64,000 nt of DNA, from the NCBI RefSeq assembly GCF_001577775.1, contig NZ_CP010835.1, positions 1,744,264 to 1,808,263 of the forward strand. The letters run 5' to 3'. The notes under the pieces were generated by a model, which was not told the DNA's origin, made no database searches, and saw nothing but the letters and a program-made list of their open reading frames with translations. The DNA is from Pyrococcus kukulkanii. GTDB lineage: Archaea; Methanobacteriota_B; Thermococci; Thermococcales; Thermococcaceae. Below are positions 23,329-60,991 of this stretch, piece after piece. Made by a program: the position numbers and the translations under genes. Each line of letters opens with the position of its first letter. Position 1 is the stretch's first letter.

Positions 23329-23390
23329 CAACCTTATCTTTTTTAGGATCTAAAGGGATTGATTTTTAACTTCTTTAATTTGAATATATC

Positions 23391-23446
23391 CTGATGATGA
23401 ACCTTCCCCTCATCTGAATGATGATGAGCACACCGGTAGGCTGAGG
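23391..23446 (+). ncRNA. C/D box guide sRNA in the fen1 leader
   Basis: All four boxes of an archaeal C/D RNA are present in order. C box ATGATGA is at 23394-23400 and D' box CTGA at 23414-23417. C' box ATGATGA is at 23421-23427 and D box CTGA at 23441-23444. Guides of 13 nt sit before each D-type box. By the N+5 rule they would direct 2'-O-methylation in targets ATGAGGGGAAGGT and CCTACCGGTGTGC. A TATA-like GATTTTTAAC at 23361-23370 is at the correct distance for a start near the C box. The D box overlaps the fen1 ribosome site, and fen1 starts 9 bp later. Confidence 0.85.
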
Positions 23447-23453
23447 TGATCCT

Positions 23454-25467: not shown

Positions 25468-25508
25468 TTTCCGCCCCACTGAATACTAGGTACCTCTTTA
25501 TAAGTTCT

Positions 25509-25856
25509 TTAGCCTCTCGGTAGTTCCCTTCTCCTTAACCCAAGTATTTTCCTGAGCCTCGCATTTCCGGTCATCATGCCTGACAGTTGAATTGTCAAGT
25601 TTTTATTATCCAGGGCCAGTTGATAGGCTTTGAATCGAATTGAGGACCATTTGCCTTCTACTTCAAAGGGGCCTTTCTCTAATCTCTATATCTTCTCAAG
25701 ATTATCATTAGAGAATCCATTTTTAAGTTCCCCACCGTATATAGCTTTTATCACTTCGATTAACTTGAAGTCGCTCTCTTCTATCATTCTTAGGGCTTTT
25801 TCGGGAACGTTTATGGAAATCTTCTTCCACCTACCTGCTTTGAATACGACTTTCAT
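25509..25856 (-). pseudogene. Small gene interrupted by an in-frame amber stop
   Basis: Starting from ATG at 25856 the frame reads 56 codons (MKVVFKAGRWKKISINVPEK...), meets TAG at 25688-25686, then continues open in the same frame for 58 more codons (GPFEVEGKWSSIRFKAYQLA ... LRKILGLRRRELPRG) to TAA at 25509. The two parts together look like one protein of about 115 residues that I do not recognise. Amber read-through by pyrrolysine is not expected in this lineage, so I treat it as a nonsense-inactivated gene; a sequencing error is an alternative. It overlaps the end of the preceding broken gene. Confidence 0.6.
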
Positions 25857-26144
25857 TTAGTTGCCTCCTTAACTTTTCATTCTCCATGTGGAGCTTAAGC
25901 CTTAGTTCCATCATTTTTACCTTGTCCCTTTCTGCTTGCATATAGAACCTTATGAGTCTTTCATACTCTTCGGAAACTTTGTTTAGCCTATCCTCTAAGG
26001 CAGACCTCCGTTCTCTAAGAAATTTAATTTGAGGGAAAGAAGGAGCCTCCCGAGTTTATCTTTTGACCTAAGAACTTGTTCTATCTTCCCCTTGTTGGCT
26101 TTTATCAACTCAACATCCTCTTCAGATACCCAAATCTCCATCAT
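25831..26144 (-). pseudogene. Frameshifted coiled-coil gene
   Basis: The frame starts at ATG 26144, overlapping the toroid-protein stop in an ATGA junction. It encodes MMEIWVSEEDVELIKANKGK... and stops at 25995. A second frame, entered near 26035, continues naturally (PSFPQIKFLRERRSALEDRL ... MQAERDKVKMMELRLKLHME) to TAG at 25831. That second part is a strong coiled coil with no start codon of its own. One frameshift joins them into a protein of about 104 residues. Either the gene is inactivated, or there is a sequencing indel or programmed shift; no slippery run is obvious at the junction. Confidence 0.6.
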
Positions 26145-26995
26145 AACCACCTTACAAGAACATCTAAGCTTGCAAGTGCCCTGTACGTGTTCTGGAAGTT
26201 TGAAATTCCTAGCTCATAACTTCTCCTGAATCCTCCATTTGGGTTTTGCAGAGCCTTTATGAACTTGATGTGCCTTTTTATGCACGTGGCTCTCTTTCCG
26301 AGCATCTGTAGTCCTCTTAATGCGTAGAACGTTGGCTCTATGTACGGGGGCAGAGAGTTGGGAACTTCTGTGAAACCTCCCCTGTCCCCGCAGACTTCGC
26401 AGAGCTCAAAATGCACAGTATCAATTCTCTGCCCCAGGAAGTTAAGTGAGTATAATGCCTGGTAAGTCATCGTTGTCGTTGGACGCTCTACACCGAAACC
26501 ATCTCTAATTTTGTATTGCATTATGAATTCTATCATTCTCTCCTTCATCTCTGGGGATGGTCTGTAACCTACGGATTCCATAGCTCTGGAGGCCCAGTAG
26601 GTTGCTTCAAGTGGTGTTGCCGTTCCAAACTCTTCGCTTCCTCCTAATCCAACCGCGAATTTTCCTTTTACTGGATTGTACTTTTTAAACAGCAGTTCCA
26701 GTTTTTCCCTGGCTAAATCCTTGGCCCCTAGGATTGCTAGGGCCTCGATGGCCATTGCAACTCCAACGGTTGCTGTCTGCATTTGAGCTGAGTTATAGAG
26801 GAACTCTATTGTCTTCTCCTTCTTTGGAACTTCTATTCCTAATAGGGTGTAGATCTTTACGGCATAGTACGTGTCATTTATGTTTGTATCGGCTAGTTGG
26901 GATACGAAGCAGTACCCTCCGTCATCGTGCCTTCTCCTCTCAACATATTCGAACACCTTTTCTAAGTTAATAAACTCCCCTAGCTTCGAGCCCAT
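26141..26995 (-). CDS. Prenyltransferase/squalene-cyclase-type toroid repeat protein
   Basis: A 284-residue protein built from alpha-alpha toroid repeats like those of terpenoid cyclases and protein prenyltransferases. Repeat cores are DDGGYCFVSQLADTNINDTYYA, then CGDRGGFTEVPNSLPPYIEPTF and NPNGGFRRSYELGISNFQNT. No cyclase acid motif (DXDD) is visible, so the fold is assigned but not the activity. The CEVCG pair may bind metal. The gene has a 5' leader with a fluoride-type riboswitch, and its ribosome site GGAGG at 27007-27003 is one arm of the predicted switch helix. Two broken small genes and trm5b follow on the same strand. A role in fluoride response is inferred only from the leader. Confidence 0.75.
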   Translation of the reverse strand: MGSKLGEFINLEKVFEYVERRRHDDGGYCFVSQLADTNINDTYYAVKIYTLLGIEVPKKEKTIEFLYNSAQMQTATVGVAMAIEALAILGAKDLAREKLELLFKKYNPVKGKFAVGLGGSEEFGTATPLEATYWASRAMESVGYRPSPEMKERMIEFIMQYKIRDGFGVERPTTTMTYQALYSLNFLGQRIDTVHFELCEVCGDRGGFTEVPNSLPPYIEPTFYALRGLQMLGKRATCIKRHIKFIKALQNPNGGFRRSYELGISNFQNTYRALASLDVLVRWL

Positions 26996-27090
26996 ACTCT
27001 CGCCTCCCGTAAAGCTTTCAGAACAGGCGCCATCAGCCTCCCGACGGGAGGCGGTTCGGGCTCGAAGCCCCGGGCGGGCGCCATCGCCCC
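26996..27090 (-). promoter_or_regulatory. Fluoride (crcB-type) riboswitch with SD-sequestering switch
   Basis: Read on the minus strand, the aptamer matches the fluoride riboswitch. P1 is GGGCG/CGCCC enclosing AUGGCGCC (27088-27072). After an extra UUCG-type hairpin (about 27071-27057) comes AACCGCC, and the second helix is GCCUCCC/GGGAGGC. It is followed by UGAUGGCGCC, whose GGCGCC can form the pseudoknot with the P1 loop. The published Thermotoga petrophila aptamer has the same layout as I remember it. Downstream, ACGGGAGGCG (27010-27001) contains the ribosome site and is a perfect 10-bp complement of CGCCUCCCGU (27053-27044), the arm of the second helix. The two pairings exclude each other, suggesting translation is switched on by ligand. 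No Rfam search was possible. Confidence 0.8.
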
Positions 27091-27152
27091 AACGGAACGC
27101 CAGGATTACCTACTCCCGTTGCCGGTTTCGGTTCATCTCCTGGGTTCCGGCC
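27091..27152 (-). other. Unidentified structured RNA domain at the 5' end of the riboswitch leader
   Basis: On the minus strand, GGAAC-CCAGGA (27148-27138) pairs with UCCUGG-C-GUUCC (27105-27094), giving an 11-bp helix with one bulge. An inner hairpin CCG-GCAA-CGG has a GNRA tetraloop (27125-27116). The large asymmetric internal loop between them is purine-rich, with GAUGAACCGAAA on one side and GAGUAGGUAA on the other, which looks like a folded motif. It lies between the predicted transcription start (about 27153) and the fluoride aptamer. I do not recognise it as a known riboswitch class. Confidence 0.5.
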
Positions 27153-27171: not shown

Positions 27172-27187
27172 GTTAATTTAAAAACCT
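27172..27187. promoter_or_regulatory. Shared AT-rich box of two divergent promoters
   Basis: GTTAATTTAAAAACCT can act as TATA box in both directions. On the minus strand GGTTTTTAAATT is about 26 bp from the first G of the structured leader (about 27152). On the plus strand TTTAAAAA is about 26 bp from a start near 27207, just before the phosphatase ATG. Confidence 0.45.
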
Positions 27188-60490: not shown

Positions 60491-60912
60491 TAAGACTCCC
60501 ACTATTATCTACCGTTATCAAGAACCTCTTCAAGAAGCCGGCAACTAATCCCTTCCCTAAGACTGAACCTGTTCCTGTTCCTGAGAACTTCAGGGGCAAG
60601 ATAGTGTACAACGTCGACAAGTGCGTTGGCTGTAGAATGTGCGTTACCGTGTGCCCTGCTGGAGTTTTCGTGTACCTCCCGGAGATAAGGAAGGTTGCAC
60701 TATGGACGGGCAGGTGCGTGTTCTGCAAGCAGTGCGTCGATGTCTGTCCGACAAATGCGCTTCAAATGAGCGATGAGTTCCTGCTTGCGAGTTACGACAA
60801 GTACGACTCAAAGTTCATCTATGTAACCCCGGAGGAAGCTGAGGAGATCAAGAAGAAGCAGGAGGAACTAAAGAAGGCCAAGGCACAGGCTAAAGCTAAG
60901 AAGGATCAGTGA
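60487..60912 (+). CDS. mbhN: Membrane-bound hydrogenase ferredoxin subunit N
   Basis: 141 residues, last gene of the operon. Two [4Fe-4S] motifs, CVGCRMCVTVCPAG and CVFCKQCVDVCPTNA, receive electrons from ferredoxin. The C-terminus is a Lys/Ala/Glu-rich helix. Its stop codon lies within a C/D sRNA on the other strand. Confidence 0.94.
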   Translation: MIRLPLLSTVIKNLFKKPATNPFPKTEPVPVPENFRGKIVYNVDKCVGCRMCVTVCPAGVFVYLPEIRKVALWTGRCVFCKQCVDVCPTNALQMSDEFLLASYDKYDSKFIYVTPEEAEEIKKKQEELKKAKAQAKAKKDQ

Positions 60913-60955
60913 ACCGGTCCTCATCACCCTTCAGGTCAGGGAGTTCTCATCATTC
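60904..60955 (-). ncRNA. C/D box guide sRNA antisense to the mbhN 3' end
   Basis: On the minus strand: C box ATGATGA (60953-60947), 12-nt guide, D' box CTGA (60934-60931), 3-nt spacer, C' box GTGATGA (60927-60921), 11-nt guide, D box CTGA (60909-60906). GA/TC ends can pair. Targets predicted by the N+5 rule lie in GTCAGGGAGTTC and TGAACCGGTCC. A TATA-like ATTAAAAG around 60980-60987 is correctly spaced for its start. The D box lies in the last codons of mbhN. Confidence 0.85.
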
Positions 60956-60991
60956 AAAATATTATAAACCCTTCTCTTCTTTTAATTCTTG

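Follow-up and report, generated by a model that had tools for sequence, protein, structure and literature searches.

Both bacteria and archaea carry the crcB motif, now known as the fluoride riboswitch, and the genes associated with it include formate hydrogenlyase (PMC2864571). In Thermococcus kodakarensis, the crcB/fluoride RNA lies before TK0513 and not before the crcB gene TK0514, a gene order termed surprising when it was published in 2014, and the Pyrococcus abyssi counterpart was confirmed by RNA-seq (PMC4247193). A T. kodakarensis fluoride riboswitch has since been put to the test (Speed et al. 2018, as cited in PMC8241225); in the relevant passage of that 2021 article, it is the only natural archaeal riboswitch to have been experimentally determined, and is presumed to be translational.

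A fluoride aptamer in a Pyrococcus leader

The window analyzed here is a 64,000-nucleotide stretch of the Pyrococcus kukulkanii genome. The features discussed, all on the minus strand, are as follows.

27173..27186, putative TATA-box-like promoter element GGTTTTTAAATTAA, read from the sequence
27093..27150, extra structured leader element of ~58 nt in the promoter-to-aptamer interval, from sequence comparison
27017..27097, fluoride riboswitch aptamer (RF01734) with P1, an optional P2-type linker hairpin, P3 and a pseudoknot, from cmscan and pair counts in 44 leaders
27089-27085 with 27076-27072, P1, GGGCG with CGCCC, from a coordinate check
27077..27082, pseudoknot strand GGCGCC in the P1 loop, with its partner at 27031-27026, from pair counts and a double change
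27058..27070, linker hairpin GGGCUUCGAGCCC within the aptamer, its last 11 nt antisense to the start codon and codons 2-4, from complementarity and the synonymous freeze
27056-27050, AACCGCC strand, from a coordinate check
27052-27036, P3, from a coordinate check
27044..27053, P3 5' arm CGCCUCCCGU, antisense to the ribosome site
27026..27035, pseudoknot 3' strand UGAUGGCGCC, in which GGCGCC is 27031-27026, from the RF01734 alignment and pair counts
27001..27010, Shine-Dalgarno region ACGGGAGGCG, with GGAGG 7 nt before the ATG, from the sequence
26983..26995, putatively masked initiation region, start codon and codons 2-4, AUG GGC UCG AAG C, from zero synonymous changes
26141..26995, controlled gene for a 284-aa alpha/alpha-toroid protein (prenyltransferase fold), from PF00432, AlphaFold2 (AF2) and Foldseek
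25480..26140, remnants of two small coiled-coil operon genes, from frameshifts and stops

A sequence-only reading of this DNA had proposed a fluoride-type aptamer, to be checked with Infernal. The cmscan match at 27097-27017 scored 42.5 bits, above the curated gathering cut-off of 34 bits that defines membership of RF01734 (E-value 2e-8 when the whole window was searched, 1.1e-10 with the local stretch), and was the only match in the 1.98-Mb genome. P1, AACCGCC, P3 and the pseudoknot were all found where that reading had placed them. Across 44 leaders, the pseudoknot was paired in 264/264 cells (100%), and one of its pairs changes on both sides, from U-A to C-G. Its strands, GGCGCC/GGCGCC in the window, become GGCGUC/GACGCC in Thermococcus-type genomes, so that pairing is kept by the double change. 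In the same 44 leaders, the ligand-bound (ON) fold exceeded 500 of 500 shuffles in both cells paired and covariation score. The aptamer and the toroid gene are conserved as a pair across the family. Judged by its covariance-model score and conserved pairing, the leader in this heat-loving archaeon genuinely belongs to the established fluoride riboswitch family, and this copy would be expected to bind fluoride.

At this locus, the structured element (27150-27093) was seen in the window's genus alone, and it gave no match to Rfam, even at E 10. Its 28-nt core occurs in many Thermococcales genomes with 1-3 mismatches and in up to 8 copies each; one copy (L220) lies directly after an OrfB_IS605/Cas12f1-like_TNB domain, at the OrfB/TnpB 3' end. 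The element also resembles the P. abyssi sRkB/sRkC RNAs (PMC3124441). From the repeated core, the OrfB/TnpB 3' copy and this likeness, it may be a mobile-element RNA hairpin inserted into the leader of the window's genus. Elsewhere in the window are two Pyrococcus C/D box RNAs (RF00095), at 23390-23447 (+) and 60903-60956 (-).

An antisense strand and frozen codons

Bacterial transcriptional fluoride riboswitches share the aptamer core and pseudoknot with the window's copy, but use an intrinsic-terminator platform where the window has a duplex over the initiation site. One part of this duplex, a 10-bp helix of 27053-27044 with 27010-27001, had been proposed as a switch masking the Shine-Dalgarno region, and its coordinates and its ribosome site 7 nt before the ATG were confirmed. 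The alternative helix is real, but the proposal was incomplete. Within the linker hairpin GGGCUUCGAGCCC lies the reverse complement of GGGCUCGAAGC, a stretch of the gene start (AUGGGCUCGAAGC), so that 27068-27058 can pair with 26993-26983 (the start codon G and codons 2-4) in an 11-bp helix. The two helices, separated by an internal loop of the start codon A and U, give an OFF duplex of ~21 bp over the ribosome site and start codon, about twice the length proposed. The extra hairpin, earlier called unusual, is thus the second half of the masking duplex and is conserved in most of the family. As in a translational riboswitch, the duplex consumes aptamer nucleotides (27068-27044), and is therefore an alternative to the ligand-bound fold.

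The linker-hairpin:codon helix was paired in 99.4% of cells (44 leaders). On the Shine-Dalgarno side, the family as a whole largely retains the CCGCC:GGCGG core, while pairs beyond it occur mainly in Pyrococcus-like genomes; Thermococcus-type leaders conserve ~5 pairs, compared with 10 in the window's genus. When the pseudoknot was disallowed in folding, at least 10 crossing OFF pairs formed in 44/54 leaders. The OFF duplex gave a median gain of 12.4 kcal/mol over the aptamer and start region folded apart (54 leaders), in energies that leave out the pseudoknot, fluoride, Mg2+ and mostly the growth temperature. By general nearest-neighbour values, the six pseudoknot pairs should repay roughly this gain, so a balance between ON and OFF tuned by the ligand is plausible. 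Covariation across leaders, earlier proposed as a check, was seen for the ON fold and not for the OFF helices, which in the toroid class (44 leaders) showed no excess over shuffles; there, OFF pairs are mostly invariant or change only to G-U. Compensatory OFF-helix changes were seen in one leader, L163, of a second class described below.

Codon entropy across 143 conserved columns is lowest at codons 2-4 (GGC, UCG, AAG). On a gene tree of 67 genomes in which the hairpin is intact, these codons have zero synonymous changes, and no other column among the 152 that are conserved is free of them. The median column has 15.5, and columns elsewhere have at least 10 (Gly), 12 (Ser) or 8 (Lys). Codon 5, which lies outside the start-codon helix except for its first base, varies. 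For pairing with the aptamer strand, the real codons 2-5 were among the best four of 288 synonymous versions in 52/54 leaders; in the two that fell outside (L118 and L123), the hairpin is absent or has diverged. A set of 79 leaders shows the canonical codon block in 68/68 whose hairpin is intact and a changed block in 7/11 whose hairpin is lost or diverged; four genomes (L123, L177, L183 and L192) keep the codons with a diverged hairpin. Corrected for relatedness, the association runs in the same direction in 2-3 independent pairs with none against, a number that cannot reach significance. Given the codon freeze, the pairing rank and the confinement of codon change to genomes that lost the hairpin, the sequences say yes to selection on complementarity to the start codons.

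These observations bear on how the leader may work. A switch that sets the P3 arm against the Shine-Dalgarno region alone would draw on the 10-bp helix, which exists and is longest in Pyrococcus-like genomes, and would treat the linker hairpin as an ordinary optional P2, such as is present in other archaeal RF01734 matches too, with the codon match caused otherwise. We consider this improbable, as it leaves unexplained the exact 11-nt reverse complement, a synonymous freeze of codons 2-4 that stops at codon 5, and codon changes restricted to hairpin-loss genomes. Control of transcription, in which the aptamer competes with a terminator and start-region pairing is secondary, has precedent in the intrinsic terminators that overlap many bacterial fluoride riboswitches (PMC2864571, PMC13273304), yet the leader has no U-tract before the ATG and its alternative helix is centred on the Shine-Dalgarno region and start codon, making this reading quite unlikely. 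The least probable explanation attributes the freeze to the protein or to initiation context (an MGSK N-terminus, low structure at the start), independently of the aptamer. The MGSK residues are themselves conserved in most toroid orthologues, but third positions, beyond the reach of protein constraint, are frozen as well, the start region is strongly and not weakly structured, and change in these codons is limited to genomes that have lost the hairpin; an intact hairpin with freely varying third positions was not found among the 67 genomes.

We therefore favor a translational fluoride ON switch, which we regard as the very probable reading. In this mechanism, without fluoride, 27068-27044 (linker hairpin and P3 5' arm) would pair with the mRNA initiation region 27010-26983, and ribosome loading would be blocked by 10 bp at the Shine-Dalgarno region together with 11 bp that take in the start codon G and codons 2-4. 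Fluoride would stabilize the pseudoknotted aptamer, in which the linker hairpin and P3 would each close on themselves, consuming the antisense strand and exposing the start site. The alpha/alpha-toroid protein would then be made under fluoride stress.

A second leader design

Another RF01734-type copy was found in 14 Thermococcales leaders (L089, L138, L139, L163, L166, L167, L170, L172, L174, L176, L178, L181, L184 and L186), before a NuoH-like gene, named by eye from its sequence, in a formate-hydrogenlyase-type cluster. The aptamer family is that of the crcB motif described before formate hydrogenlyase genes (PMC2864571). As in the toroid class, aptamer strands can pair with the Shine-Dalgarno flank and early codons; the antisense here differs in being the P1 5' strand and the pseudoknot loop, and all 14 leaders are without the linker hairpin. 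UUCCGGG, on the P1 5' side, pairs with codons 2-5 (CCCGGAA), with 6 or 7 of 7 pairs kept in 14/14, in L163 through the compensatory changes. The P1-loop pseudoknot strand GGCGUC is able to pair with GACGCC between the Shine-Dalgarno sequence and the start codon. These genes have GUG or UUG starts and GGAGGUGACGCC, in which GACGCC copies a pseudoknot strand beside the Shine-Dalgarno sequence. Since the second class reaches codons and flank through another aptamer strand, two differently built leaders carry an antisense copy of the initiation region within the aptamer.

In two further leaders, L140 and L144 (G067 and G077), palindromic P2 hairpins, GCAUAUGC and GCACGUGC, were seen by eye. They could form 8 bp (one G-U) with GCAUGUGC in the opening codons of the frame that follows, crcB in the case of L140.

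The toroid gene and a partly dismantled operon

The controlled gene had been read as encoding a protein of prenyltransferase fold and not an exporter, and this was upheld. Its product matches PF00432 with E 1.8e-15, and the AF2 model (pLDDT 92, pTM 0.91) had squalene-hopene cyclases and protein prenyltransferase beta subunits as its best Foldseek matches, with a TM of ~0.7 to the RabGGTase beta subunit. The protein thus has the alpha/alpha-toroid fold in common with these enzymes, at 12-19% identity. In the family alignment of 30 homologues, none of the Asp, Cys and His positions is invariant, so that, on sequence comparison, a prenyltransferase zinc site is not apparent; several of these residues are nearly invariant within the Thermococcales. 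A scan of named genomes for toroid relatives gave a single MAG, 98% identical.

The gene at 26995-26141 is the orthologue of a crcB-adjacent gene in Thermococcus-type genomes. In 48 of 49 non-Pyrococcus-like Thermococcaceae with both genes, counted by hand and with the Pyrococcus-like label inferred, crcB lies 0.1-4 kb downstream of the toroid gene on the same strand; one genome counted (G013) has a broken toroid gene and is without the riboswitch. These arrays often include DUF6062, two small coiled-coil genes and DUF190. A genome of a distant archaeal family (G087) has toroid, crcB and DUF190 genes in the same order without a riboswitch match. A class-level relative (G062, L128) has crcB, DUF190, a fluoride riboswitch, a GTPase-like gene (582 aa), a small gene and a toroid-like gene in one array.

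The window itself is without crcB. In its genus, crcB-DUF190 is located elsewhere without a fluoride riboswitch, and a second such riboswitch before crcB was sought in the window's genome and not found. The coiled-coil genes (25480-26140) are broken in the window and intact in its closest relatives, G006 and G008. In G004, a member of the genus, the toroid gene remains, but crcB and the 5' half of the riboswitch are gone. The crcB of G006 (L136) is a damaged fragment, and G004, at 99% completeness, yielded none. Some members of the genus seem to be losing fluoride export. As relatives keep the toroid gene by crcB, and crcB has moved away in the window's genus, comparison of gene order identifies the locus as the partly dismantled remainder of an old fluoride operon. 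The earlier suggestion of a new fluoride-response locus was partly wrong, in that the locus does not stand alone; a wholly new fluoride locus was rejected, given the riboswitch-toroid pair beside crcB in relatives. The most likely role of the toroid protein is within the CrcB fluoride-export response.

The TK0513 riboswitch of T. kodakarensis is of the same RNA family, and its gene order matches the riboswitch-toroid-crcB array, with TK0513 presumably the toroid orthologue. In the window's genus, by contrast, crcB no longer follows downstream, the Shine-Dalgarno helix has 10 bp and not ~5, and the aptamer is preceded by the structured element described above. Start-codon pairing was not described in the literature searched, in which Speed et al. 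2018 was represented by papers citing it. As far as seen, the riboswitch family is established and its context partly known, while the expression platform is well supported and apparently undescribed.

More broadly, it is about an even call whether archaeal fluoride riboswitches control translation through an in-aptamer antisense of the Shine-Dalgarno region, start and first codons, in two Thermococcales designs with N-terminal codons frozen for the RNA, with the toroid protein as an undescribed component of the fluoride response. Archaeal riboswitch mechanisms are almost unstudied, and these data give a testable mechanism for the T. kodakarensis-type fluoride riboswitch. In the frozen codons, pairing of a regulatory RNA is seen to constrain a coding sequence, and the conserved, uncharacterized toroid protein is a candidate fluoride-response factor beside CrcB.
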